A stretch of 23,400 nt of DNA from a virus. A program made the translations under genes and the position numbers. The notes below the pieces were generated by a model, which saw nothing but the letters and a program-made list of their open reading frames with translations, ran no database searches and was not told the origin of the DNA. This document shows, in pieces, positions 6,032 to 23,072 of this stretch. Position 1 is the stretch's first letter, and every line of letters begins with the position of its first letter. The stretch lies in IMG/VR virus record IMGVR_UViG_3300025120_000570, positions 1 to 23,400 of that record, one strand, 5' to 3'.

Positions 6032-6973
6032 ATGGCAATAAACGTAAATACTGTATATCAAACCGTTTTATTAATACTTAATAAAGAACAAAGGGGTTAC
6101 ATGACTCCTTTAGAGTTTAATAAAATAGGTGCTCAAGTTCAAGGAGAAATATTTGAAACTTATTTTGATAGTTTAAATCAACAGTTGCGTACACCACAAG
6201 CAGATACAGACTACGCAAATAGAGTCGTAAGTCTTGACGAAAAAATCTCTATATTCAAAACAAGTAATAATGCTGTTTATTCTAACGGTACTTTTCAATT
6301 GCCTTCTCAATATTCTGGAACGGCATCTACATCCCAAACTTTTACAATAACAAATCCTGGATTGACTTATACGTTAACTGGATCAAGCGCAACTTTATCA
6401 GCTGGTAATTATGTGTCTAATGCTTTTGAAGGAGCAACTGGTTCTGAAATAGAACTAGCATCAACAAGTTATGGCATAAGCGGAACCACGGTAACGGTAC
6501 CTCAGTATACAGCTGCAAATAAATTAATAATTAATTTATACCCTACAGAATTCTACAGACTGGGTAATGTTATATATACTTTAGGAGCTATACCATCTCA
6601 CGAGTTACAAAGAGTTCAAAAATCAGAACTTTATCATTTGTTATCTTCTAATCTAACAAAACCATCTACAATATATCCTATATATACTTATGAAAATAAT
6701 CTTCTTACAGTGTACCCCACATCTATTCAAACAGGTCTTACTGTAGATTATCTTAGAAAACCTATTGCACCTATATGGAATTTTAGTATAGGTGGTAATG
6801 GACAATATACTTTTGTCCCATCTACTTCATTTAATTTTGAATTACATCCAGCAGAGCGTATGGAGTTAATATTAAAGATTTTATTATATGCTGGGGTTGT
6901 TGTAAAAAGTCCAGAAATAGTAGATATAGCTGCTCAACAAGTTGCTCAAGAAAACCAAAATCAACAAATTTAA
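6032..6973 (+). CDS. Head-tail connector/ring protein 1
   Basis: The 313-residue product probably forms a ring below the portal. The N-terminal helical part (VNTVYQTVLLILNKEQRGYM, then TPLEFNKIGAQVQGEIFETY) and the later blocks ELYHLLSSNLTKPSTIYPIY (about 199-218) and VDYLRKPIAPIWNF (about 238-251) match a pattern I recall from connector proteins of crAss-like and marine podoviruses. The C-terminus (PAERMELILKILLYAGVVVK) is helical, as in many adaptor proteins. Between about residues 95 and 170 lies a Thr/Ser/Gly-rich stretch with a beta-domain look, probably an insertion exposed on the tail surface. The next gene starts 6 bases after the stop, so the two ring genes are likely translated together. 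Confidence 0.72.
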   Translation: MAINVNTVYQTVLLILNKEQRGYMTPLEFNKIGAQVQGEIFETYFDSLNQQLRTPQADTDYANRVVSLDEKISIFKTSNNAVYSNGTFQLPSQYSGTASTSQTFTITNPGLTYTLTGSSATLSAGNYVSNAFEGATGSEIELASTSYGISGTTVTVPQYTAANKLIINLYPTEFYRLGNVIYTLGAIPSHELQRVQKSELYHLLSSNLTKPSTIYPIYTYENNLLTVYPTSIQTGLTVDYLRKPIAPIWNFSIGGNGQYTFVPSTSFNFELHPAERMELILKILLYAGVVVKSPEIVDIAAQQVAQENQNQQI

Positions 6974-6979
6974 TAAGAT

Positions 6980-8395
6980 ATGCCAAGACCTGATGGTGGT
7001 TTAATCACCGAAACTAACAGACAATATTACGCTGGTGCTCAGCAGTTTTACTTAGCCACAGGTGGAAACAACCTAACCTTTACTAGTACATTTGACACTA
7101 ATTTAATATTTGGTAGTTCAGATCCTTCTAATGGACAATACGGTTTAAATAACTTTACAGTATCCACAAGTGCAAACGCTCAAACTTGGGCAGAACTTAC
7201 ACCTGCTGCATCTGTTGTTAATGCGGTAATTAATCAAAATGGTGGTGTTGCATCTGTTAACATTACAACCACAGTTACTGTTGCTAGTTTAAGAGTTGGT
7301 ATGACTATATATGGAGCTGGTATAACCGGAAATCCTACTGCTGCTAAAATTACGGTGGTTAATGGTATTAACATAACTTTAGATAAAGCTATAGCTTTGG
7401 CTGGCGCAGCCACAACTCCTGTTACATTTCAATTTGATGCACCATTTACAATGTCTGGTAACATCATTACAATTGCTGATACTATACCAAATGCAACTTA
7501 TGTAAAAATACAACTTAAAGACACTGCTGTACAGGAAAATAGAGGAAGTTATGAATACACGAAATTACACGATGTTATAGATAATTTTTTAATTGCTTTC
7601 GTAGGTGCTGGTAAAATTATACCTAGTGTTAAAAGAACCGATGTTATATTTCATGCTAAGCGTGGTTTACAAGAGTTTAGCTATGATACTTTAAAAAGCA
7701 TTAGATCACAAGAATTAACAATACCACCTAGCTTAAGTTTAATAATCCCTCAAGATTATGTTAATTATGTCAGATTTTCTTGGATAGATCAAAGAGGTGT
7801 TCAACACACTATATATCCAGCTAACACATTAACTACAAACCCATATAGCAACCCTGTTCAAGATAACTTTGGAACACCAACACAAGATAATTTTGATTCA
7901 AACTTAACTGGTACTTCACAAACTGAAGCTGCTTGGGAAAGTAATGATCCTAGAAATATTAGCGGTGCTTTTGTAGAAACATTTTCACAAGATGGTATAT
8001 TTGGTAGAAGTTTTTATGATGGATCTTATGGGCAGAGATATGGTATGAATCCTGAAACAAGCCAAAGAAATGGTTGGTTTACTATAAATGAAAGAAACGG
8101 AACATTTGATTTTACAAGTGAATTAAGTAATAAGCTAATAGTTGTAGAATACATATCAGATGGAAATGCTTATGATCTAGATGCTAAAATACCTAAACTA
8201 GCAGAAGACGCTTTGTATTCTCACATAGCACATGGTATATTAGCTTCAACGGCTCAAACGCCTGAGTATCTTGTGCAAAGATTTAAAAGAGAAAGAAGTG
8301 CTAAACTAAGAAATGCTAAGATTAGATTATCTAATATAAAATTAGATCAGATAATACAAGTTATGAGAAATCAATCTAAATGGATTAAATACTAA
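6980..8395 (+). CDS. Head-tail connector/tail tubular-type protein (ring protein 2) with inserted beta domain
   Basis: The 471-residue product has a core (about 195-470) that I recognise as the crAss-like tail-tubular/connector family: IDNFLIAFVGAGKIIPSVKR, then TDVIFHAKRGLQEFSYDTLK and IIPQDYVNYVRFSW. The C-terminal helical part (PKLAEDALYSHIAHGILAST, then FKRERSAKLRNAKIRLSNIK) resembles the helices of P22 gp4-like adaptors. The N-terminal 180 residues are different: a Thr/Asn-rich beta region that includes a domain at about 95-155 with the core VGMTIYGAGITG. The same domain type recurs four times in the 1421-residue tail protein downstream. A short local duplication, QDNFGTPTQDNF, sits near residue 295. 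The gene follows ring protein 1 after 6 bases and is followed 3 bases later by a small gene. Confidence 0.75.
   Translation: MPRPDGGLITETNRQYYAGAQQFYLATGGNNLTFTSTFDTNLIFGSSDPSNGQYGLNNFTVSTSANAQTWAELTPAASVVNAVINQNGGVASVNITTTVTVASLRVGMTIYGAGITGNPTAAKITVVNGINITLDKAIALAGAATTPVTFQFDAPFTMSGNIITIADTIPNATYVKIQLKDTAVQENRGSYEYTKLHDVIDNFLIAFVGAGKIIPSVKRTDVIFHAKRGLQEFSYDTLKSIRSQELTIPPSLSLIIPQDYVNYVRFSWIDQRGVQHTIYPANTLTTNPYSNPVQDNFGTPTQDNFDSNLTGTSQTEAAWESNDPRNISGAFVETFSQDGIFGRSFYDGSYGQRYGMNPETSQRNGWFTINERNGTFDFTSELSNKLIVVEYISDGNAYDLDAKIPKLAEDALYSHIAHGILASTAQTPEYLVQRFKRERSAKLRNAKIRLSNIKLDQIIQVMRNQSKWIKY
7262..7443 (+). repeat. Repeated beta domain, copy in ring protein 2
   Basis: Residues about 95-155 of the 471-residue connector protein contain TVASLRVGMTIYGAGITG, then AAKITVVNGINITLDKAIAL and TPVTFQFDA. 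It shares the 'VGMxIxGxGI...I-V-x-ITL...F-F' plan with the four copies in the hub protein encoded 2-5 kb downstream. Confidence 0.58.
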
Positions 8396-8398
8396 GTT

Positions 8399-8668
8399 AT
8401 GATAAATAATAAAAAAACAAATAAAAAGCAACTAAAACATCATGGAAATCCTGTGATGGGAGGTTCTGGAGGTATTGGATTTATTGGTGGAGCAGGTGTA
8501 AAAGCCGTGACAGGAGCAATGGGTTTAGTAAAAAATGTTTTAACTAGAGGTGCAAAAAGTATTAAAGGTAAGACTACTTCTTTTAAGTCAAAACCGGTTA
8601 ATTTCAAAGGTCCTAATCCAGCTCATAACACAGGTGCTGGTGGAAATAGTTATCCAAGCGGAAGATAA
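8399..8668 (+). CDS. Small Gly-rich basic protein, unknown, possibly minor virion protein
   Basis: The 89-residue product starts MINNKKTNKKQLKHHGNPVM, then has a Gly-rich moderately hydrophobic segment (GGSGGIGFIGGAGVKAVTGA, about residues 18-45) and a Lys-rich Gly/Pro/Asn tail. The start lies 3 bases after the stop of ring protein 2, and the next gene begins 10 bases after its end, so it is clearly part of the operon and not a chance frame. I do not recognise the family. Gly-rich amphipathic stretches followed by cationic tails occur in membrane-active and DNA-contacting virion peptides, but this is speculation. The antisense frame over its end has no comparable spacing and is rejected. Confidence 0.65.
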   Translation: MINNKKTNKKQLKHHGNPVMGGSGGIGFIGGAGVKAVTGAMGLVKNVLTRGAKSIKGKTTSFKSKPVNFKGPNPAHNTGAGGNSYPSGR

Positions 8669-8678
8669 ATATATATAA

Positions 8679-11600
8679 ATGGCAGAAATTAAAAACAGTT
8701 TTCTAAAATCCAAGATGAATAAAGACTTGGATGATAGATTAGTACCTAATGGTGAATATAGAGACGCACAGAATGTATCTGTAGGTAAATCAGAAGATGA
8801 TGATATAGGCGCTTTAGAAACTATCCTAGGCAACGTATCTATAGCTAGTTTAGGAACAGCAGCTTCTAATAGAAATGTTCAAGCTATAGGTGTTTTAGCA
8901 GATGAAGCAAGGCAGCAGTTTTATATATTTTATACCGATTACACGGGTAACGATCCATTTGCTCCTTCTTCAAATGTTCATTATATTTATTTATTTAATC
9001 CTATTAAAAATATATTTCAGAAATTAGTTGAAGGAAAGTTTTTAAACTTTTCAACACAATTTCCTGTTGAAACTACTTTAGTTGAAGATTTATTGTTTTT
9101 TACAGACAATAGAAATCAACCAAGAAAAATTAACATAACTAGATCTTTAGGTTATTATACTTTAGAAAACCAATTATCTGTTGCAAAATATAATCCTTAT
9201 TTACCTATATCATTACTTAAAAGTTCTTCTGGAACTATAAATTCAAGAATTAACAATAGTAGTTTTACTTTAAACAATATTTCTAGTTCGACAACTAACT
9301 CCGCTACCACAAATGTTTCAACCATAACGGTTATAACTGACGTAAGACTTATACAACCTGGTATGATAATTGGTTACACGGGTATTGCTGTAAATAAATT
9401 TATTACAATATTAGATGTTTCTGTAAATGGATTAATAGCAACATTAGTATTATCAGAAAATGTAACTATAGCAAGCGGTATATCAATAAATTTTTATCCT
9501 AATTTTAGAACTTTCTCTAGACTTGTTTCAACATCGATAAAAGCAACTGAATATAGGTACATAGCATCATGGGCTGGTGCTACAGCTACTATAGAGGTTT
9601 ATTCTACACCACTTTTTCTTCCTACTTTAACTAGCGGAGAAAAAATAACATTTTTTGATACCACAATGACTAACGAGTCATTAAATGATAATTGGCCTGG
9701 AGATCCAGATCTTTTAAAAGATAAGTTTGTAAGGTTTAGTTATAGATTTCAATTTGATGATGGTGAGTTTTCAATAATGGCTCCATTCACTCAAATTGCT
9801 TTTATACCAAAACAACAAGGATACTTTGTAAAAGGAGATCAAGAAGCTGCCTATAGAAGTACTGTGTTACAGTGGATGGAAAACAATGTACAGAACGTTG
9901 AATTAATAATTCCTTTACCTGATAAAGCTGTTGAACTTGGTTCTGAAGTAAATTCAAAATATAAAATTACCGCTATAGAACTTATATATAAAGAATCAGA
10001 ATCTTTAGCTACTAGAATTTTAGAAAAAATTCCTATATCAGATATAAACTGTAGTGATTGTGTAGAGACTGCTGATTTAAATTATTATACTTATAATTTT
10101 CAGTCTAGAAAACCTTATAAAACGTTACCTACTATTCAAACAACAAGAGTTTACGATAAGGTTCCAACTAGAGCTTTAGCCCAAGAAACTGCTGGTAATA
10201 GAATAATTTATGGAAACTTCTGGAATCAACACACTCCTCCTAATACTTTAAATTATAGGCTAGGCGTAAGTCAAAAAATAAATGGAAGTGAAGGTAAAAA
10301 CTTTATGGAATACCCAAACCATTCTTTAAAACAAAACAGAACATATCAAGCGGGTGTTATTTTAGCTGATAAATGGGGAAGACAATCTAGCGTTATATTA
10401 TCTAGTGTTCAGGAAAAAGAAACACAAGAAATAGCATCTCCTTATACTAAATATGGAGGATCTACAGTTTACAATGGTTATAAAAAAGGTATAGTATCAA
10501 CTAGAAACATTGGAACAACAAATTCAAGTTTAACATTATCATACCCTCAATTAGGAATACAAAAAGGAATGATAATATCTGGTGGAGGTATTGATGCTAA
10601 AGAAGAAATTACAGTGAACGATATAGTTCAATCAGCAACTACTACGACTTTAACTTTAACAGCTGCTAAAACTATAGCTTCAAATTCTACTCTTTATTTT
10701 AACGAAGTAAACGCAGGTCAATGGTTTGGAGACGCTTTACAACTATCTTTTGATTCACCAATTACATCAGGTCGTATTATAGGATCTACACCAAACAATC
10801 CTTTTGAAGCAAATGGAGAACCTGGTTTATATGCTATACCATTAGGAGATGGATTAGGTTTTTATGTATCTAATACAACAGTTCAATCACAAATACTTGA
10901 TAACACGTACTTGTTTAAAATAATAAGTGCTACTTCGCCTATTGCTAATAGGCCAGTTATGGGTTCTTTTTTTAGAGGTCAAGATACTGATTTTGTAAAA
11001 GTAACTGGTATATCTACAACAACGGTGGGTAATATTATAGAATACACATTAACGTTTAACGGTTTATTATCTGAAATATATACTGATACTTCTGTAGCCG
11101 CTTTTCAAAACACAATACCTTATTATGCTTATGATTTAAATGCTACTGGATGGTATTCTTATAAAATAGTAGTAAAACAACAAGAGCAAGAATATTACAA
11201 TGTTTACCTTCCAGGTGTTTTAGCGGGTTATCCTGGTCAACCATTACCTTCTAATGGTATAACAATAGACAACAATTTAGCTAATGGAGGAACTGGATCT
11301 ACAAGTATTTTGTATGCAGGAGCCAGTTATTCTGGACTAGCTGAACTTATAGAACCTCGCATGGTGGTAAGTGGTGGTGGTCTTACAGCTCCATTACCTG
11401 TAGTAATAGGTACACTACAAAATCCTATTAATTTTGAAGTTTTGGTTGATCGAGACGTGGTGGTCGGTGCTAATGCGACACTTAATTATGCAATGCCAAA
11501 AGATTTTGAAGATTTTCCAACTGGTGAAATTGGAGCAACAGCTAATACAGTTTTAATAAATGATAACATAAATAAAGTTCCAAGAGACTTAACAGAACTT

Positions 11601-12944
11601 GGTCCAGAACAAAGACAATTTAGAAGTTCTGTTCAGTTATTTGGTAGAGTTTCTAACAACTTATACAATAAAAATATTCAATATTATCCAGGAACTCTAA
11701 CGGATACAGCAATAAGTATTTCTACAGCTAATGATTCTAATTTTAAACCAAATTCAATATTAGAAAATAATTATCAAAATTTTTATCAAATAGATACAAA
11801 TCCTTTAATAGCTAGAATAGAAACACAAACTCAATCTGAAACAATAGCAACAAGAGGTGGTGCGTCTGGCTCGCCTAGTCCAGGTGCAGATGTTACATTG
11901 ACACTTTCTTCTGCCCCTACACCTCCAATTTTGCCTGGTATGATTATTACAGATACTGTTACAAAAGCGGTATATGGCTCTGTTAATTCTGTTATAAGTC
12001 CTACAGAAATAAAATGTAGGCTTGCTCAAGATATGCCAACCACTCAGTTGAGTTTAACTTTTACAGCAACTATTGGTTCTCCTAGTGGAAGATCTTTAAT
12101 AGAGGATTTTACATTAATGCAACCTACCCTTGCTATTTATGAAACAGAACCTGTAGAATCTTTATTAGACTTATATTGGGAGTCATCAACTTCTGGTTTA
12201 ATAGCTGATTTAAATAGAGATATAGCTTTGAATTTTGATAATACTGTTCCAGATAGATTTAGCAATTTTACTTTTACATTAAACGAAAACACAGCTATTG
12301 GAACTAACATAACTAGCTCTTTTATTCCTCAAAATAAAAATGGGGATTTTACAGATACGTTTATAAACATGAAGGTTTTAAATGGAAACGGGATTAATTC
12401 TACAGATAAGTTTGAGTTAGTATCTACCATAACGTTAGAAGCTGGGGTTAGTGTTACTAGGTACACAATTAAAACAGCAGCTGTTTTTGATTACACTCAT
12501 GATTCAGCAACGGTAGATGTTTATAATTTTTATATGACAGTAAGAAGTCCTTTTAATAGGCCTGGTACTTTACCTACTAACGGTAGTAATTTAATAACTT
12601 TTAAAGGATCTTTAACAAATACAGCACCCGTTAATCAAGGAACAGCAGGATCTGTAACAAAAGCCTCTGCTTTTATAGGACAAATGGTTTCTTTATATTC
12701 TTTTGACAATGGATCGGCTTCAGGCTCTAAAGATGGTTTAAAGTTTGTAACAAATTCATATACAAACGATGGAGCTGATTATTTTAATTTAGATGAATTT
12801 ACAGGAAGTTTAACAAAAACAGCTATAGCACCAGCTGGAACATACTATTTGTCTTATCAAGTTAATGATTCTTGGAATGGACATACATTGGGGCTAGGCA
12901 CTGGAGCTAATACTCCTAGCGCTTTTACAATTGTAATAACCTAA
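8679..12944 (+). CDS. Large tail hub/stabilisation (nozzle-type) protein with repeated beta domains
   Basis: At 1421 residues this is probably the main component of the short tail below the connector. The start (MAEIKNSFLKSKMNKDLDDR, then PNGEYRDAQNVSVGKSEDDD and IGALETILGN) is a pattern I recall from large structural proteins of marine podoviruses. It agrees with the N-terminus of P22 gp10-like stabilisation and T7 gp12-like nozzle proteins ('nG.yrda.Nv'). Other core blocks are AGNRIIYGNFWNQHTPPN (about 504-521) and NRTYQAGVILADKWGRQSSV (about 553-572). Four similar beta domains are inserted, at about 211-274, 613-676, 878-940 and 1069-1133. From about residue 1190 the protein has cadherin-like character (FTLNENTAIGTNI) and a final Ig/cadherin-like unit ending in YYLSYQVNDSWNG. 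Cys residues in NCSDCVE (about 450) could bind metal. Function is inferred. Confidence 0.78.
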   Translation: MAEIKNSFLKSKMNKDLDDRLVPNGEYRDAQNVSVGKSEDDDIGALETILGNVSIASLGTAASNRNVQAIGVLADEARQQFYIFYTDYTGNDPFAPSSNVHYIYLFNPIKNIFQKLVEGKFLNFSTQFPVETTLVEDLLFFTDNRNQPRKINITRSLGYYTLENQLSVAKYNPYLPISLLKSSSGTINSRINNSSFTLNNISSSTTNSATTNVSTITVITDVRLIQPGMIIGYTGIAVNKFITILDVSVNGLIATLVLSENVTIASGISINFYPNFRTFSRLVSTSIKATEYRYIASWAGATATIEVYSTPLFLPTLTSGEKITFFDTTMTNESLNDNWPGDPDLLKDKFVRFSYRFQFDDGEFSIMAPFTQIAFIPKQQGYFVKGDQEAAYRSTVLQWMENNVQNVELIIPLPDKAVELGSEVNSKYKITAIELIYKESESLATRILEKIPISDINCSDCVETADLNYYTYNFQSRKPYKTLPTIQTTRVYDKVPTRALAQETAGNRIIYGNFWNQHTPPNTLNYRLGVSQKINGSEGKNFMEYPNHSLKQNRTYQAGVILADKWGRQSSVILSSVQEKETQEIASPYTKYGGSTVYNGYKKGIVSTRNIGTTNSSLTLSYPQLGIQKGMIISGGGIDAKEEITVNDIVQSATTTTLTLTAAKTIASNSTLYFNEVNAGQWFGDALQLSFDSPITSGRIIGSTPNNPFEANGEPGLYAIPLGDGLGFYVSNTTVQSQILDNTYLFKIISATSPIANRPVMGSFFRGQDTDFVKVTGISTTTVGNIIEYTLTFNGLLSEIYTDTSVAAFQNTIPYYAYDLNATGWYSYKIVVKQQEQEYYNVYLPGVLAGYPGQPLPSNGITIDNNLANGGTGSTSILYAGASYSGLAELIEPRMVVSGGGLTAPLPVVIGTLQNPINFEVLVDRDVVVGANATLNYAMPKDFEDFPTGEIGATANTVLINDNINKVPRDLTELGPEQRQFRSSVQLFGRVSNNLYNKNIQYYPGTLTDTAISISTANDSNFKPNSILENNYQNFYQIDTNPLIARIETQTQSETIATRGGASGSPSPGADVTLTLSSAPTPPILPGMIITDTVTKAVYGSVNSVISPTEIKCRLAQDMPTTQLSLTFTATIGSPSGRSLIEDFTLMQPTLAIYETEPVESLLDLYWESSTSGLIADLNRDIALNFDNTVPDRFSNFTFTLNENTAIGTNITSSFIPQNKNGDFTDTFINMKVLNGNGINSTDKFELVSTITLEAGVSVTRYTIKTAAVFDYTHDSATVDVYNFYMTVRSPFNRPGTLPTNGSNLITFKGSLTNTAPVNQGTAGSVTKASAFIGQMVSLYSFDNGSASGSKDGLKFVTNSYTNDGADYFNLDEFTGSLTKTAIAPAGTYYLSYQVNDSWNGHTLGLGTGANTPSAFTIVIT
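9309..9500 (+). repeat. Repeated beta domain, copy 1 in the tail hub protein
   Basis: Residues about 211-274 of the hub protein contain the pattern IQPGMIIGYTGIAVNKFITI followed by a beta strand pattern ending IASGISINFYP. It matches the layout of the domain in ring protein 2 (about 7262-7443) and three more copies downstream: a T/S-rich strand, (I/L)xxGMxIxGxGI, a valine/isoleucine strand, then L-LS-x(4-6)-IAS-x-L-F. The similarity is at the protein level and the DNA copies have diverged. Confidence 0.6.
10515..10706 (+). repeat. Repeated beta domain, copy 2 in the tail hub protein
   Basis: Residues about 613-676 carry SLTLSYPQLGIQKGMIISGG, then GIDAKEEITVNDIV and TLTLTAAKTIASNSTLYF. This is the clearest copy of the domain: the 'GMIISGGGI' core and the 'LT-A-TIAS-STLYF' closing strands line up directly with copy 1 (GMIIGYTGI and IASGISINF). 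Confidence 0.65.
11310..11497 (+). repeat. Repeated beta domain, copy 3 in the tail hub protein
   Basis: Residues about 878-940 contain LAELIEPRMVVSGGGLTAPL, then VVIGTLQNPINFEVLVDRDV and GANATLNYAMP. The core is more diverged (RMVVSGGGL in place of GMIISGGGI), but spacing and strand order agree with copies 1 and 2. Confidence 0.5.
11883..12075 (+). repeat. Repeated beta domain, copy 4 in the tail hub protein
   Basis: Residues about 1069-1133 contain DVTLTLSSAPTPPILPGMII, then VYGSVNSVISPTEIKCRLA and TQLSLTFTA. The 'LPGMII' strand and the closing 'LSLTF' strand match the other copies. The middle is less conserved and the GxGI turn is replaced by TDTVT. Confidence 0.5.
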
Positions 12945-12965
12945 CAAAATAAGTGATAATAAACA

Positions 12966-14408
12966 ATGGCAGGAGCAAGAATAGAAATAGCATATTTTAA
13001 CACCTTTTGGCTTAAAAAACTAAAAAGCTTGAATGATCAAGGGGCAACAATTCCAGAGTTTAATAGTATTGTTCCTGGAAGCACGCCATCTGTACTTGCT
13101 AATAATCTTCCTAACGACTTCACGGTTTGTCCAGGCGGTACTGGATGCACTATTTATCTTCCGTCTTTAGATGCTTCTGAAGATTGGTATATAGAAGAAT
13201 CAAGAATTAGAGGAGGTTACAACAACACTAATGTTGACTACGGGGTAAAAGCTTATTTAACTGAAGAGTTTCCCGCGGCACAACATAGATTTAATTCTTT
13301 AATTTATTCTGGAATATATAATTCTAGAACTGGAGTAAACGAAACAAATCAATTTCCGGTAGGAGAATCTATAACTAGAAGTTTAGATCCAGCTTATGTT
13401 TCTATACAAAAGCTTTATGCAGAAAATACAAATTTAACTATATTTCAAGAAGAAAAAGTTAGTAAAGCTTTAATTGATAAAGATGCTATATATTCTGCTG
13501 AAGGTCAAGGAATAACAACTGCTGGAGCAAGAGTTATAGGTCAAACAGTACCTTACGCTGGTGAGTATGGTATATCTACAGATCCAGGAAGTTTTGCACA
13601 ATATGGTTACAGAATTTATTTTACAGATAGAAGAAGAAATTGTGTGTGTAGATTATCTAGAGATGGTATAACTGAAATATCATCTTATGGTATGCATGAT
13701 TATTTTAGGGATGAACTTTCTTCATTAAGTGTAGACTCTGTTGTTGGAGGTTTTAACGAGCATACTAAAAACTATATAATATCAATCCAAACTCCAAACT
13801 CTCTATATCCTAATGCAGACACTGCTTACACTACATCTGCGTTTGATGAATCAGTTAGTGGTTGGCCAAGTTTTTATAAATTCAAACCTGAACTAATGTC
13901 TAGTTTAGGGCCTAATTTTTATTCATTTTATAGAGGAGAAATATGGCAACATTACACAGACCAATCTGGTGTTAATAATAATTATGCACAATTTTATGGA
14001 GTTACATATAATTCTTCAGTTAGTATAATTTTAAACAGGAAACCTTCTTTGGTTAAAAACTTTAAAACTTTAAACTATGAAGGTGCTGTTGGATGGGAAG
14101 CAGCTTCTTTTTCAACTAGTGCGGGAGACGTAACTTTTCCTATAACTAAATTTGTAGAACAAACTTCTTTATCAGGACTAGAAGCTAATTTATTTACAAA
14201 TAGCTTTAAGAAAAAAGAAAACAAATTTTTTGCCAACTTAATGAATAACTCAACTGCAACAGCTGGAGAAATATTATGGGGACAAGATTCTACTGGAGTA
14301 AAAGGGTTTTTCTCTACAGTAGTAATGACATTAAATAACTCTTTATATCCAACTACAAAATCGGAATTGTTTGCGGTATCATCAGAGTATGTAGAATCAT
14401 CATATTAA
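12966..14408 (+). CDS. Tail hub/nozzle partner protein, probable beta-propeller-like structural protein
   Basis: The 480-residue product follows the 1421-residue hub protein after 21 bases. Recognisable blocks are IEESRIRGGYNNTNVDYGVK (about 77-96), HRFNSLIYSGIYNSRTGVNE (about 103-122), LIDKDAIYSAEGQG (about 175-188) and RIYFTDRRRNCVCRLSRDGI (about 216-235). The last, with its 'YFTD.RR..v.RLSRDG.teIS' pattern, looks like a propeller blade and is something I recall from tail structural proteins of marine podoviruses. P22 gp10 and T7 gp12 each join a hub and propeller in one chain, so this gene may encode the rest of a nozzle split over two genes. Cys55 and Cys61 (CPGGTGC) and the CVC at about 226-228 could be redox or metal sites. 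There is no fiber-like repeat or host-binding signature. Confidence 0.7.
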   Translation: MAGARIEIAYFNTFWLKKLKSLNDQGATIPEFNSIVPGSTPSVLANNLPNDFTVCPGGTGCTIYLPSLDASEDWYIEESRIRGGYNNTNVDYGVKAYLTEEFPAAQHRFNSLIYSGIYNSRTGVNETNQFPVGESITRSLDPAYVSIQKLYAENTNLTIFQEEKVSKALIDKDAIYSAEGQGITTAGARVIGQTVPYAGEYGISTDPGSFAQYGYRIYFTDRRRNCVCRLSRDGITEISSYGMHDYFRDELSSLSVDSVVGGFNEHTKNYIISIQTPNSLYPNADTAYTTSAFDESVSGWPSFYKFKPELMSSLGPNFYSFYRGEIWQHYTDQSGVNNNYAQFYGVTYNSSVSIILNRKPSLVKNFKTLNYEGAVGWEAASFSTSAGDVTFPITKFVEQTSLSGLEANLFTNSFKKKENKFFANLMNNSTATAGEILWGQDSTGVKGFFSTVVMTLNNSLYPTTKSELFAVSSEYVESSY

Positions 14409-16232: not shown

Positions 16233-19200
16233 ATGGCAAATTGTAAAGAATTACATAAAGAAGGTACTCCGGAATATGACGCTTGCGTAGAGCAGAAAAA
16301 AGCAAAAGAACTTAATGTAGATAAGATTAAAGAAGAAAAGTTAGATGAAGTTATAGTTGACGCTGAAAAGCCAAAAGAAATAATTCCTATTGTAGAAAAA
16401 AACGCTGAAGGTTTAGAAATTGTTAAACAAGAACCTAAAACAAAAGATAAATCAAAAGATTTAGTAGAAAAAGCCTCTTATGTATTAAATACTCTAACGC
16501 CCTTTAATATTGATCCTGAGGCTGGTAGTTTCTGGCAAGATACAAAAGCTTGGTTAGGAAATTTAGAGAACAAAACTTCTACAGCTTTAGATATAGTAGA
16601 CACTGCATCGGATATTGTTGGGAAAGAAATAAAACTTGCAAATTTAAAATTTGAAAACCTTAAAGGTGTTAAAGAATCTTATAAGGTAATAGGTAAAAAT
16701 TTAGGTGCAGATACTTTTGAAAATATAGACGCACCTACATATAACGCTGTACAAGAGTTAGCTTTACAACAGCTTATATTTGAAAAAAAGAAAAATTTAA
16801 AAGCTTCAGAATTAAACGATCCAGAAAATTATATGCCAACTGGTATTGAAATTTGGGGAGAAACTGCTAGACTATTGTTAAACTCTCTCCCATATGCTAG
16901 TGGAGAAAAAACAACACCAGTAGATATATCTGCTCAAGGATTAGGTATAGATACAGACCTTGCCATTGTTGATGCTATTTCTGATTTTTATGGTTACGCT
17001 AGAAATGGATGGTTAATAGGAGAAGAGATTCAGCCTATTTACAAAATGTTTAATAGTAATGAAGAGGATCAGATAAAAAATACCCAAGCTTATGTGGCAA
17101 AAAACGCTAATACAATAGCTTTAAACTATACTTCTGATGAGTTCAAAGATTATCAAAATGATATAAAAATAAACCTTAAAAAAGGAAATAGTAGTTGGTG
17201 GTCGGTGAGTAAAGCTTTGTTTAAAAACCCAGATGTTCTTTTGACTTCTGGTATGCAGTCTTTAATGATGAATGCCAGCAATGTTATAAATGCTGAAGGA
17301 GCTAGAGAAAGAGGTATTGAAGCTGCTACAGAAGGAGCTGCAACTGCAGCGGTAGTTACAAAAAATCCTATTGCTACAGGTGTTGGGTTTGTATCGGGTT
17401 TAGGAGCAGGAACTATGGAGTTTTTAGAACTTAATGTAACCGCTTTAGAAACTCTTAACGATGTAATTAAAGCAGCAAAATTAGGGGAAAGTATAGCGGA
17501 TTTAACTGAAGAGCAAATTCTTGATTTATTTACTGATAAAAAGAAAATGCAAGAAATACTTAAAATCTCTACAGATAGAAGTAAAGTTGTAAGTGCTGGA
17601 ACTTATATTGCTGCTATGCTTAGTTTTACTGGTGGTAGAGCTATGAGTGCTAGAGGTATTAGTGCATTAAAAACTTTAGCAACGTTAGGTGTATCAAATA
17701 TGGCAGCAGAAGCGGCTATAGAAGCTTTAGCTTTAAAAGTTCAAGGTAAAGATTTAAGAACAGTAGAATCAGCTGAAAGTGTGCAATTAGAAGCTTTTTC
17801 TATTAGTGGTCCATCGGTTTTTTCTAGTATAGCATCTGTTTCAAAAGGTATTAATCAATCAAATATTGCTAGAAAAGCACAAAAAATAGCTAATAAAAAC
17901 GGTTTTAGTTTAGCTGATGTATTTAGTGGAAATCCTAATGCAACAGGAGTAGAAATAATAAACAGTGGTCTTGATCAAGGTCAAATGGAATTATTATTAA
18001 ATTCTTTAGTTCAAAGTAAAGGATTAAGCATAGAAGAAGGAAAAGAAATATTAATAAACTTTCAAAATTTAAAAGCATTTGTAAATCAAACTAAATCTTT
18101 AGCAAAAAAATTTAATTTTGACGATGCACAAATAGCTAGAATATCTGATATTTACTCGGAAATTAATGAAAATGAAAAATTAATAAATCAATATAAAAAC
18201 GCATCCGCCTTGACAGCACCTTTGTTAGATGCTAATGCTAAATTAAATACAGAGCTTGAAGATATAATAGCTTCAGGAACTGGTATTACACAAGGAGAAA
18301 CTTTAGATGAAGTTTTTGTAGATGCTAAATCTAAAAAACAACAAGATAAAAGAGGTCAAAAAATTGATGATTTAGCGGGTAAGAGAAAAGATAATGGGCA
18401 ATATGAAACAACTAAAGAAGAGTGGGATAATGGAGGAGCTGATAAAGCTATCACCGATATATTTACTCAACCTGATCCTATAACTAATAAACCAGGTTTA
18501 TTAAATAGTGTTATTGCGAGTAAAATAACTTTTCAGATGTCTCAATTGCCTAATTTTTCTCCAGAAGACTTTATAAGTGCTACTGTATTAGAATTAATAC
18601 CTCATATAAGAAATTTTAATCCTGAGCAAAACGATAGTTTAAATGGTTGGATTATACCACAAATACAAAATAAAGTAAAAAATGCTTTAAAAAAAGGAAA
18701 ATCTGGAACAAAAGAAACATTTGAATCTTCAATACAAAGTGGATCAGTAGATGGTAAAGAAATACAAATTGAAGATGATTCAACACAAATAGAAACAGAA
18801 GCTGAAACTCAAATAGAACCTATTAAAGTTGTTGGGGATATGTTAGCAGATATAGCTGGTATTGATTCAGAGACTACAACCGCTGCCGCTGATCAAACTA
18901 TAAAAAGTCCTATTGAAATAGAGAAAAAAGGAAGCCCAAGGCAAGCTGTTAAAGATGTATCTGATATAGGTAAAGCTAAGTTTTACGAAATGATAATAGA
19001 GGCTTTTGGTGGTCCATTAGGCACAAAAGATAATAAAATTGGTAACTTTATCACGTTTCTTGAGGCAAACGGTATTAATATATTAAGAATACTTGAAAAC
19101 GAAAATAGTATAAAAAACAATCAATTATCAGGTTTATATATTCCTAAAAAAGTAGGTAGAACAACGGGTAAATTTGACAAAGGAGCAGGTAAAGGGGTTT

Positions 19201-22200
19201 TTACTTATAACAATCCAAAACCTACTACGCAAGATTTAATTAATTTCTTGACAGATCCTAACACGGGGATGACCACTTTAAGAAATAGACAAGAAAAATT
19301 TGCTGACATACTAGCTGGTTTACTTAATAGAGCTAAAACTAAAGAATTAGGTGATACTAAAAAAGGTGCACAAATATTAGGAGAATCCCAATTAATAACA
19401 AGCCAACCAAAAATAAAAAAAGAACAAATTCCAGAAAAAGTAGCTGAAATATTATCACAAATCGATATAGTTGTTGGAAAATTAGATGCTGTTGGTAAAA
19501 ATCAAATAGGTTCTGGTGTTAGCCCTGCGTTAATTGCTAACCTTTTAAGTGGAGGATTAAAACTACTTAAATCTGGTATACAAGGAAGTGTTAGCTTAGC
19601 GCAAGCATTAGGTAGATTAAAAAGATACATAGCTAATAAAGCTAAAAATTCTACATTAGCTGATATTATAACTAGATATTTTGTTGATAAAGCTACTACT
19701 GGTAAAGTTAGTGAAATTAATGAAAACTCTGTAGCACAAATATTAACAGAGTTTGCTGTTGTAACAGGTAGTGTTGATATATTATTAAGTAAACATAACT
19801 TAGGCAAAACTTACAATTTAAAAACAAAAGATGGTATTAAAAAATATATAGCAGATTTAAAAAAATATGTATTTCCTTATTTCCCTAAAAACTTCTTTTT
19901 TGGTAAAAAAGGTACTATATTTAGAACAAGCAGTAGAATGGCTGGTAAAGATTTAGATGCTTTTTATGTTTCTGAGCTTGAAAATGCAAGAGATACTTTC
20001 ACTAATTGGGGTGATGACTTTGTTCAAGGCGATAATTTAACTCAAACAGCTTATAAAACTAAAGACGGTGGAATAATAAGAGATGTAAAAACTATTGAAA
20101 AAAATAAAGGAAAAAAAATAGACGATTGGAATGCTAAAAACATGTCTATAGGAGAGCAAATGTGGTCTAGAATAAATCAAGCTATAAAAGCAGACAAAAA
20201 TAGCGCTGTTGCTATAGCTGGATACCTACAACTAGTTGGCAATAATGTAAAGCATCCTCATAAAATGATGGCCGAGTTTCTAGGTTACACAGGAAAACCT
20301 GGAAAAAATGGTTTAAGATATGAGCATGCAATGCCCGCTACAGCGGCTTATATATATTTATTAGATGCTTCATTAAGCGGGAAAAATTTTGAAATAGAGT
20401 TTAAAAATATTATAAAAAATTATAAACTTATAGCTTTAGATGTAAATGATGACAACAAAATAAACAAAGTATCTTATGATGGCACTAAGCTTTATTTAAA
20501 AACTCGTATGAATCCAGGTTGGTTAGTAGAAACTGGAAAGTGGTATGATAGATATTTTAATAACTTAGTTGCAGCGATAGATGGAGGTATTGATCCTAAT
20601 TCTATCATAATGTTAGATGGTAGAACTTTAGCTGAAACATTTGGTATAAAAACTTCTCAAGGAAGACCAGAGGCTGTTATTGTAGACGCTAACGTTAAGA
20701 GTACAGATAAAATAGCTGAAGGTCAAAAAGCTGTAGAAAATAATCCTAATTTAATTCCTAAAGAACCAGTTGATCTTAGTAAAGATTTTAATATAATACT
20801 TGAAGAATCAGAAGGTATTGGTCAAGATAAAGTTTACTCTGATATAGGAGCTAGAAAATCAGGTAGTAATAAAGGTAGATATAAATTTTTTATGCCTCCT
20901 GGTGCTCAAGATTTTGAGCTTTTAATATATAACTTTTTAGGAAAAGGCAAGTTAGGAGAAAAACAAAAGAGATTTTTTGAAGAAAATCTTTTTAAACCTT
21001 ACTCTAAAGGTATTGCAAAAATGGAAAACTATAGAGCTCAGTTGATGGATGACTTTGAAGCTTTAAAAAAATTGATGCCTGGTGTTAATACAAAATTAGG
21101 TGATAAGATTAAAAGTTTAGAATATACAAATAGCCAAGCTATAAGAGTTTTTTTATGGGATCAATCTGGTTTTGATATACCTGGTATTTCTAAAACAGAC
21201 AAAAACAAATTATTAGCTTATGTAAATAAAAATCCTGATTTAATAGAATTTTCAAAAGGTCTTACAGCTTTAAGTAAACAAGATCAATGGATTAAGCCAG
21301 ATGCTTATTGGGATAGTGGAAGTATAGTAAAAGACGTTAATGATCTTGTCAGTAAGATTGGTAGGAAACAACAACTAGAACAGTTTGTTGCTAATGCTGA
21401 TGTTATATTTTCTAAAGATAATTTGAATAAAATAGAAGCTGTCTATGGAATAGAATTAAGAGAAGCTATACAAGATATATTGTATCGTATGAAAAATGGT
21501 ACTAACAGACCTTCTAACGCTGATAGATTAACAAATAGTTTTACTAATTGGCTTAATAATTCTGTTGGAGCCATAATGTTTATGAATACTAAATCAGCAA
21601 CGTTACAATTATTGTCTATGTTGAATTACATTAATCATAGAGAAAATAATCCTATAGCTGTTGCTAAAGCTGTTTTAAATGTAAAACAATACGGTAAAGA
21701 TGTATACACAATACTTTCTAGTCCTAAAATAAAAAGAAGATTTGCCGGTGAAGGTAGAGGTGTTAATGAAGCAGAGATTTCAAGTGCTGTTAGTGGTTCT
21801 ACAAACAAAATGTCCGCAATGATTTCTTATTTATTAAAAATAGGTTTTACACCAACAAGAGCTGCTGATGCCGCTGCGATTGGATTAGGTGGTGCTCCGT
21901 ATTATAGAAATAAAATAAATGCTTATAAAAAACAAGGTTTATCAGATAAAGAAGCAGAAGCAAGAGCTTGGGATGATTTCTCTGAAACCACAGAAAAGTT
22001 TCAACAGTCTTCTGATCCTATGCTTATTTCACAACAACAAGCTAGTGTATTAGGTAGATTTATTTTAGCTTTTCAAAATACTCCCATGCAATATACTAGA
22101 AGCATGGTAAAAGATGGAAAAGATTTAACAAACAGAAGAAGAATATCAGGTTTAACACAATCAGAAAGTGATAGAGTTTACATAAGTAGAATATTATATT

Positions 22201-23072
22201 ATGGAGCTGTGCAGAATTTTATGTTTGCTGCATTATCTAATGCATTATTTGCTTTAGTACCTGGATTTGACGATGAAGAAAAAGAACTAGATAAAGAACA
22301 ACAGTTAATACAAAACAAACAAATTAGAATTATCAACAATATGATTGATACAGTTTTAAGAGGTAGTGGTGTATACGGAGCTATTGTTTCTACGCTTAAA
22401 AATGTTGCATTAAAATATAACCAAGAAGAAGGTAAAACACCTTTTAATAAAGATCATAGAAATACTTTATTAGAAATAATGAATTTATCTCCACCTGTAG
22501 GTTCTAAGTTTAGAAAAATTAATAATGCTTTAAAAATAAAAGATTGGGATAGTGATATTATTGAAAAAAGAGGATGGGATGTTATGATGGATGGAAGAGT
22601 TAACTTAAGTCCTTCTTATTCTGTATTTGGTAATGTTGTAGAGGGTGTAACAAATATTCCTTTAGCTCGTATGACTGAAGAAGTAGCAAGGCTTAGTGAA
22701 ATGTTAGATTCTAGAAATACATCCATGCAAAGAATTGCTTTAGGATTAGGTTGGAGAACTTGGGATGTAAACGCTGATAATGAAGAACACGATTTAATTA
22801 AAATAGAAACTAAACAAAACAAAGAACAAAAAAGAAAACAAAAAGTTATAGATGATAGAGAAGAAAGAAAAAGAATAGCTGAAGAAAAAAAATATGAGGG
22901 AAAAACTGATGAAGAAATAAAGTTAATAAAACAAAAAGATTCTTTAACTGGTACTAATAGATCAGAACAAATAAAATCTTTATTAGATTTAGGTTTAACT
23001 AAAAAAGAAATTAAAGAACTTAAATATGAAGATGATAGAGTTAATAAAATAATAGAACTAACAAATAAATAA
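16233..23072 (+). CDS. Giant internal virion/ejection-type protein (2279 residues)
   Basis: This is a multi-domain protein of a kind common in marine and crAss-like phages, usually of unknown role. In order: a charged N-terminus with Cys4 and Cys18 (CKELHKEGTPEYDAC) and LDEVIVDA (37-44); two Gly/Ala-rich hydrophobic segments (about 363-400 and 452-501) that may contact membranes; helical sequence to about 690; LDEVFVDA (691-698); a sigma-70 region-2-like stretch (about 763-824) with an acidic linker (830-850); a mixed region with YEHAMPATAAYIYLL (about 1363-1377); and a long block (about 1551-2012). That block contains KFFMPPGAQDFELL, NSVGAIMFMNTKSATLQLLS and QQASVLGRFILAFQNTPMQY, and ends in a hydrophobic helix (about 1987-2011, ILYYGAVQNFMFAALSNALF). 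The C-terminus (about 2195-2279) is Lys/Glu coiled coil plus SLLDLGLTKKEIKELKYEDD. I recall the 1551-2012 block from large phage structural proteins. No lysozyme or RNA polymerase motif (DxDxD) is visible. Confidence 0.72.
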   Translation: MANCKELHKEGTPEYDACVEQKKAKELNVDKIKEEKLDEVIVDAEKPKEIIPIVEKNAEGLEIVKQEPKTKDKSKDLVEKASYVLNTLTPFNIDPEAGSFWQDTKAWLGNLENKTSTALDIVDTASDIVGKEIKLANLKFENLKGVKESYKVIGKNLGADTFENIDAPTYNAVQELALQQLIFEKKKNLKASELNDPENYMPTGIEIWGETARLLLNSLPYASGEKTTPVDISAQGLGIDTDLAIVDAISDFYGYARNGWLIGEEIQPIYKMFNSNEEDQIKNTQAYVAKNANTIALNYTSDEFKDYQNDIKINLKKGNSSWWSVSKALFKNPDVLLTSGMQSLMMNASNVINAEGARERGIEAATEGAATAAVVTKNPIATGVGFVSGLGAGTMEFLELNVTALETLNDVIKAAKLGESIADLTEEQILDLFTDKKKMQEILKISTDRSKVVSAGTYIAAMLSFTGGRAMSARGISALKTLATLGVSNMAAEAAIEALALKVQGKDLRTVESAESVQLEAFSISGPSVFSSIASVSKGINQSNIARKAQKIANKNGFSLADVFSGNPNATGVEIINSGLDQGQMELLLNSLVQSKGLSIEEGKEILINFQNLKAFVNQTKSLAKKFNFDDAQIARISDIYSEINENEKLINQYKNASALTAPLLDANAKLNTELEDIIASGTGITQGETLDEVFVDAKSKKQQDKRGQKIDDLAGKRKDNGQYETTKEEWDNGGADKAITDIFTQPDPITNKPGLLNSVIASKITFQMSQLPNFSPEDFISATVLELIPHIRNFNPEQNDSLNGWIIPQIQNKVKNALKKGKSGTKETFESSIQSGSVDGKEIQIEDDSTQIETEAETQIEPIKVVGDMLADIAGIDSETTTAAADQTIKSPIEIEKKGSPRQAVKDVSDIGKAKFYEMIIEAFGGPLGTKDNKIGNFITFLEANGINILRILENENSIKNNQLSGLYIPKKVGRTTGKFDKGAGKGVFTYNNPKPTTQDLINFLTDPNTGMTTLRNRQEKFADILAGLLNRAKTKELGDTKKGAQILGESQLITSQPKIKKEQIPEKVAEILSQIDIVVGKLDAVGKNQIGSGVSPALIANLLSGGLKLLKSGIQGSVSLAQALGRLKRYIANKAKNSTLADIITRYFVDKATTGKVSEINENSVAQILTEFAVVTGSVDILLSKHNLGKTYNLKTKDGIKKYIADLKKYVFPYFPKNFFFGKKGTIFRTSSRMAGKDLDAFYVSELENARDTFTNWGDDFVQGDNLTQTAYKTKDGGIIRDVKTIEKNKGKKIDDWNAKNMSIGEQMWSRINQAIKADKNSAVAIAGYLQLVGNNVKHPHKMMAEFLGYTGKPGKNGLRYEHAMPATAAYIYLLDASLSGKNFEIEFKNIIKNYKLIALDVNDDNKINKVSYDGTKLYLKTRMNPGWLVETGKWYDRYFNNLVAAIDGGIDPNSIIMLDGRTLAETFGIKTSQGRPEAVIVDANVKSTDKIAEGQKAVENNPNLIPKEPVDLSKDFNIILEESEGIGQDKVYSDIGARKSGSNKGRYKFFMPPGAQDFELLIYNFLGKGKLGEKQKRFFEENLFKPYSKGIAKMENYRAQLMDDFEALKKLMPGVNTKLGDKIKSLEYTNSQAIRVFLWDQSGFDIPGISKTDKNKLLAYVNKNPDLIEFSKGLTALSKQDQWIKPDAYWDSGSIVKDVNDLVSKIGRKQQLEQFVANADVIFSKDNLNKIEAVYGIELREAIQDILYRMKNGTNRPSNADRLTNSFTNWLNNSVGAIMFMNTKSATLQLLSMLNYINHRENNPIAVAKAVLNVKQYGKDVYTILSSPKIKRRFAGEGRGVNEAEISSAVSGSTNKMSAMISYLLKIGFTPTRAADAAAIGLGGAPYYRNKINAYKKQGLSDKEAEARAWDDFSETTEKFQQSSDPMLISQQQASVLGRFILAFQNTPMQYTRSMVKDGKDLTNRRRISGLTQSESDRVYISRILYYGAVQNFMFAALSNALFALVPGFDDEEKELDKEQQLIQNKQIRIINNMIDTVLRGSGVYGAIVSTLKNVALKYNQEEGKTPFNKDHRNTLLEIMNLSPPVGSKFRKINNALKIKDWDSDIIEKRGWDVMMDGRVNLSPSYSVFGNVVEGVTNIPLARMTEEVARLSEMLDSRNTSMQRIALGLGWRTWDVNADNEEHDLIKIETKQNKEQKRKQKVIDDREERKRIAEEKKYEGKTDEEIKLIKQKDSLTGTNRSEQIKSLLDLGLTKKEIKELKYEDDRVNKIIELTNK

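Follow-up and report, generated by a model that had tools for sequence, protein, structure and literature searches.

A small β domain of about 60–65 residues occurs once in a 471-residue ring-type tail protein and four times in the 1421-residue N-terminal muzzle protein (muzzle-N) encoded by a fragment of an uncultured virus, IMG/VR record IMGVR_UViG_3300025120_000570 (positions 1 to 23,400; this whole 23.4-kb stretch is called the window below). The segments are, by sequence comparison, copies of one shared domain, and a further, resident copy, H0, apparently surrounds one of them. Taken together, the findings are probably best explained by a single accessory β-barrel of the type found as the I-domain in the phage P22 coat protein, gained and lost across virion genes and decorating the tail. 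An earlier sequence-only reading had described five such segments in a “connector” and a “hub” gene; both genes and their coordinates are correct, all five segments are retained, and the sixth copy had been overlooked. The host genes and copies are as follows.

6980..8395, + strand: ring-type tail protein (the “connector”), carrying C1; open reading frame (ORF) of 471 residues, PHROG 13977 at residues 185–460
7241..7438, + strand: copy C1 (ring protein residues ~88–153); hidden Markov model (HMM) match, clean insertion missing from homologues of ~407 residues
8679..12944, + strand: muzzle-N protein (the “hub”), carrying H0–H4; 1421 residues, PHROG 14478
9225..9293, + strand: resident copy H0, first part (residues ~183–205); homologue alignment and flank-join test, no score added by itself
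9294..9503, + strand: copy H1 (residues ~206–275), apparently nested in H0; HMM, leave-group-out shuffles, nesting tests
9504..9662, + strand: resident copy H0, second part (residues ~276–328); 18.0 bits against the resident profile (at most 6.5 in shuffles)
10491..10709, + strand: copy H2 (residues ~605–677); HMM, five predicted strands, barrel matches in the PDB
11274..11504, + strand: copy H3 (residues ~866–942), the weakest; same-site copies in L022 and L026 (L-numbers denote loci fetched for comparison)
11868..12077, + strand: copy H4 (residues ~1064–1133); HMM, shuffles, barrel matches in the PDB

Homology of the Copies

Pairwise BLAST of the excised segments gave a strong link between H1 and H2 and weak links otherwise; these two are the closest pair in the window at 39% identity, and no two window copies exceed about that value. 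An HMM seeded with C1, H1 and H2 recovered the unseeded H4, with i-Evalues moving from 1e-5 to 8e-11 across later rounds, together with about a hundred copies in relatives. For C1, H0, the muzzle-C copies, H1, H2, H3, H4 and a set drawn from unrelated viruses, separate profiles without common sequences were compared; reversed profiles served as controls. C1 matched H0 (E 1e-7), the muzzle-C copies (E 3e-11) and the unrelated-virus copies (E 8e-10), the last of which were also matched by H1 (E 5e-6), H2 (E 2e-8) and H3 (E 2e-8), while H4 matched C1 (E 3e-6). Each window copy was thereby tied to one or more of the other groups at E ~3e-6 or better, and the reversed controls lay mostly between 0.01 and 0.9, with a minimum of 0.0016. 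The groups had been picked with the iterated profile, which leaves some circularity in these values, most of which is avoided by leave-group-out shuffles. In the latter, single window copies scored 29.4 (C1), 26.6 (H1), 40.0 (H2) and 24.5 bits (H4), and none of 1000 residue shuffles reached any of these scores. H4 gave no score against the unrelated-virus profile alone, and H3 alone reached 2.6 bits, equalled by 45 of 1000 shuffles. H3 is thus the weakest copy, and is accepted as a member because it resembles both H2 (0 of 2000 shuffles) and the L022 copy at the same site (p 0.001). The relatedness of the five segments, proposed from alignment by eye, is borne out by HMM, profile-profile and shuffle comparisons, least firmly for H3. 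Searches of Pfam, PHROG and PDB sequences with the crAss-like domain alignment returned nothing clear, and tblastn of single copies or of a consensus against named phages gave no match, where the low-complexity filter may have masked Thr/Ser-rich sequence. The G+C content of the copies (29.5–42%, against 32.1% for the window) is uninformative.

Insertion Sites and a Nested Copy

Homologues of the ring protein fall into two length classes, of ~471 and ~407 residues, which differ by C1 at one loop. C1 is missing in a sister clade, and L028 and L043 apparently carry two copies at this loop. C1 diverges fast, with 51% identity between the window and L002 compared with 81% for the remainder of the ring protein. 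In-place exchange of C1 subtypes was considered as a source of this diversity and rejected, since the subtypes track the backbone on the ring-protein tree and fast divergence is enough. Among 64 aligned hub proteins, H2 is found in two, those of L002 and the window itself. Copies at the H3 site are present in the window, L002, L022, L026 and L075, which do not form one clade (p-AU 0.0016, approximately unbiased test); at the H4 site, L031 has a copy separate from those of the window and L002. Each of these two sites has been filled at least twice independently. At unoccupied sites the homologues have just a few residues. The proposal of a movable domain set between conserved core blocks is supported by this presence/absence variation, with clean insertions at C1, H2, H3 and H4. 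The H3 site of L074 is occupied by a different, long insert, which spans about 150 residues and does not belong to the domain studied here, so that the H3 loop looks like an insertion hot spot accepting different modules.

In all aligned hubs of the clade a resident copy of the domain directly follows the SVAKY block. The window's version of it, H0, is interrupted in the homologue alignment, with H1 lying between the first H0 strand and the remainder. With ~68 residues excised at H1, the match to the resident profile becomes continuous where it had been broken into three, and the score rises from 76.7 to 83.2 bits, while excisions away from the H1 site score worse. H1 thus apparently inserted within H0. 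A complete H1 followed by a partial copy is a less likely alternative that keeps some weight, since the opening part of H0 contributes nothing to the score by itself and is less certain than the second part. H0 itself is probably an older insertion, because the cultured outgroups lack it and have only a short stretch at its place.

Predicted Fold

Five strands are assigned in each of the predicted structures of C1, H2 and H4, and they fit the strand plan read earlier by eye (a Thr/Ser strand, a GMxIxGxGI core, a Val/Ile strand, an L-strand and a closing LxF strand). In C1 they span residues 92–97, 109–111, 123–128, 131–140 and 145–151, in a model whose blocks mostly have a predicted local distance difference test score (pLDDT) of 81–90, with one block at 63. 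The H2 and H4 models have pLDDT values of about 59–84, and their agreement with C1 is independent, because their alignments contained hub orthologues only. C1 matches the phage tail tube 9n71_A (Z 7.9, 24% identity), the LKA1 tailspike insert 4ru4_B (Z 7.4), the capsid decoration protein 8eci_1 (Z 6.7) and the coat I-domains of P22 and CUS-3 (Z 6.2 and 5.5). H2 matches 9n71_A (Z 7.3) and the K1-lyase “rider” 7w1d (Z 7.5), and H4 matches 8rk3_b, 9in6_M and the phicrAss001 coat protein 7qof_A (Z 7.2–7.7). The matches of the three copies overlap and comprise the tail tube, inserts of capsid and tailspike proteins, and small barrels from ATPases and pyruvate kinases; the domain-level matches among those listed are barrels, with no immunoglobulin (Ig) sandwich. 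In these models the fold looks like a small β-barrel of the P22 I-domain type, a type that has six strands. The analogy drawn earlier with inserted Ig-like domains holds for a small inserted β module but probably not for its fold, and the shared predicted fold can be followed in C1, H2 and H4, the models of H1 and H3 having too low a confidence.

Proposed Role on the Tail

Under the preferred explanation, a small barrel would be accepted into loops of virion proteins with the core undisturbed, and copies would be gained, lost and set into several virion genes, most likely via recombination; one copy in the window would apparently have landed within another (H1 in H0). Since ring and muzzle proteins form multi-subunit rings, each insert would surround the tail with a ring of small knobs. 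Insertion in loops suggests that the inserts are exposed on the tail surface, and their likely use is decoration, in which the barrels may brace adjacent subunits or contribute to adhesion and may offer a fast-changing outer surface to the host or environment. The most likely function would be that of an accessory barrel, exposed on the tail surface, which it braces or tunes. Tail coating and glycan binding, suggested in the sequence-only reading, would be candidate uses. Several points weigh against this explanation: C1, once acquired, tracks the ring-protein tree, which indicates stable inheritance there and not constant movement; the AlphaFold2 confidence at H1 and H3 is too low for use; and most Z scores are below 8, values that, according to the tool's own warning, may mean a common arrangement only.

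The barrels could also be pure structural cement that stabilizes contacts within the ring and muzzle and makes no contact with a receptor. This possibility deserves serious consideration, although we do not favor it: the P22 I-domain and the K1-lyase rider stabilize their proteins (PMC5701251, PMC8822698) and 8eci is a capsid decoration protein, while the fast divergence of C1 and the presence of the domain in secreted-looking bacterial proteins suggest a surface role, neither being decisive.

Occurrence in Other Genes and Route of Spread

The presence of the domain in neighbouring virion genes, already read from the window, extends to two further genes in relatives. Muzzle-C genes carry copies at several sites (22 ORFs of relatives), and the second ring protein carries copies in L030 and L054, and probably in L022. 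A search with a generic consensus matched many additional viral contigs, in which a profile built from crAss-like copies only found 51 copies at E<0.1, compared with 0 in reversed sequences. Host proteins in unrelated phages include an SU10-type adaptor, an Hc3 head closure protein and a tail fibre, besides several families of structural virion proteins, and at least eight bacterial contigs encode the domain, some within secreted-looking proteins. An unrelated viral contig (L134:2510-2959) has two tandem copies and a third farther on in one 907-residue protein that lacks a PHROG match.

Within the crAss-like lineage, the nearest kin of H4 after its L002 orthologue are the ring-protein copies of L008, L009 and L022 and the muzzle-C copies of L010 and L011, while C1 of the window lies on a different branch of the domain tree; the lineage therefore has related copies placed in different genes. 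H1 and H2 group close to copies found in other viruses and in different genes. With few columns and many forks left unresolved, the tree remains compatible with old duplications. The sequence-only reading had proposed intragenomic spread, in which a single founder, H0 for example, was duplicated within the genome of the phage to give the other copies. The occurrence of the same domain in adjacent genes and the 39% identity of H1 and H2 speak for such duplication, but it is unlikely, as the window has no nearly identical pair and the tree places H4, after L002, closest to ring-protein copies of other phages, C1 on another branch, and H1 and H2 beside copies of other viruses. Insertion from a wider pool fits the relationships of H4, H1 and H2 at least as well. 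A more far-reaching version, which we offer tentatively and consider rather improbable as a whole, is that phage virions and surface proteins of bacteria draw on one wide pool of interchangeable I-domain-like barrels; such a barrel would pass as a self-contained unit from one virion gene to another, sometimes landing inside a barrel of the same kind, and would adjust how crAss-like tails attach to their Bacteroidota hosts.

The segments might instead be ancient integral parts that were lost in many lineages. H0, which no aligned hub of the clade lacks, would agree with this, as would C1, whose presence or absence requires a single change on a ring-protein tree built without the C1 columns; however, only a few hubs have H2–H4, the H3 and H4 sites show independent filling, and H0 is missing from the outgroups, so that this explanation is very improbable. 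Chance resemblance of Thr/Ser/Gly-rich β segments, for which the shuffle result of H3 alone and the missing H4 score could be cited, is extremely improbable given the agreeing predicted folds and the excess of real over reversed matches, and is already refuted for C1, H1, H2 and H4 by the leave-group-out shuffles.

Genomic Context

The gene order in the window is portal, major capsid protein, two ring-type proteins, a two-gene muzzle and further genes. The closest cultured relatives (Elemovirus, Pervagoviridae, phage Panino) grow on Flavobacterium, Cellulophaga and Maribacter hosts, and identity to them is merely ~26–38%. Two virion genes beside the host genes are copy-free in the window.

6032..6973, + strand: second ring-type protein; PHROG 14543
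12966..14408, + strand: muzzle-C gene; PF25729 crAss_MUZ_C, E 8e-10

The 1421-residue protein labelled a hub corresponds to the N-terminal portion of a muzzle protein of the crAss-like type, as identified by PHROG 14478, which covers both muzzle-N and the next gene, by PF25729 on that adjacent gene, and by matches of the predicted model to the phicrAss001 muzzle (7qol_P, Z 8.6 over 211 residues with a root-mean-square deviation (rmsd) of 4.0; 7qok_A, Z 8.0). The label “connector” likewise gives way to ring-type tail protein, the helical part of which resembles the phicrAss001 chains 7qog_B/7qoi_FS (Z 8.8, yet rmsd 7.9). The muzzle is split over two adjacent genes (8679–14408) and is a single protein in PHROG 14478 and phi38:1. 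Toward the C-terminal end of muzzle-N (about 12260–12944) the homologue profile weakly matches cadherin-type repeats in solved structures (best E 4e-5, several weak stretches), which suggests that this end may hold more adhesion-like modules.

The second ring protein has another β-type insert of ~80 residues (6317–6556, residues ~96–175), which gave no match to the domain studied here and is missing in phi38:1, L032, L046 and L068; L022, L030 and L054 have further sequence in the same region, including copies of the domain. A small gene of 89 residues (8399–8668) lies between the ring and muzzle genes, with a similar gene in L047 alone among the fetched loci, and a 2279-residue protein (16233–23072) lacks a PHROG match at E 0.01.

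Comparison With Known Systems

Both the fold type and the concept of a mobile decoration domain are already known. The coat I-domain of P22 and CUS-3 and the coat insert of phicrAss001 (residues 79–180) are likewise small β-barrels inserted in a virion protein (Z 5.5–7.2), but are located on the capsid and are not known as a multi-copy movable module. The coat insert of the window phage itself has no sequence link to the domain, and an origin of the copies from it found no support, with profile-profile E values of 0.03–0.46, like those of reversed controls. The insertion domain of LKA1 gp49, a six-stranded barrel that resembles a V-ATPase domain as well as the P22 I-domain (PMC5701251), and the K1-lyase rider, which is P22 I-domain-like, stabilizing and lines a second sugar site (PMC8822698), are barrel-type inserts on tail proteins (Z 7.4–7.5); they belong, however, to tailspikes of unrelated phages, and their likeness to the domain is one of predicted structure. 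The Arthrobacter phage Bridgette decoration protein (8eci), matched by C1 at 25% identity, also gives borderline sequence matches (E 0.011 and 0.03) that include a G..I.GIPA.T motif, but is a free-standing capsid protein and no insert. The tail-tube insert of Acinetobacter phage Mystique (9n71, residues ~102–178) is matched by both C1 and H2, but sits in a siphophage-type tail tube and is undetected by sequence. RIFT-related domains have been reported from many proteins of phage tails and necks (PMC10684548).

Phage Ig-like domains are described as small β modules shuffled onto outer virion proteins and suspected of binding sugars (Fraser et al. 2006, as cited in PMC8718954); they are Ig sandwiches, in contrast to the barrel predicted here, and none of the Ig-type Pfam families searched (Big, FN3 and others) matched at the cut-off, the best being one of 48 domain members to a Big-like family at E 0.07. 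The BACON repeats of crAssphage are likewise repeated tail-associated β domains of crAss-like phages, spread by transfer and duplication (PMC6949934), but they form Ig-like tandem arrays in one gene, whereas the domain here consists of single loop inserts in several core genes; 0 of 48 members match BACON PF13004 at E <= 0.1. The phicrAss001 study notes that muzzle proteins vary in length through insertions able to affect the surface (PMC10172136). A limited search of the open literature, weak evidence in itself, found no description of the family as a module that ring, muzzle, adaptor and closure proteins have in common and that has been inserted repeatedly and, apparently, one copy within another.

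The best-known mobile virion domains are Ig-like folds on tubes, fibres and capsids. Here the module is of a predicted barrel type and sits in ring, muzzle, adaptor and head-closure proteins, which are usually regarded as conserved core. A profile of the domain, for which no covering Pfam family was found, would account for length variation in many structural genes of environmental phages, and the occurrence of the same protein with and without the insert provides a natural experiment on the role of such knobs.

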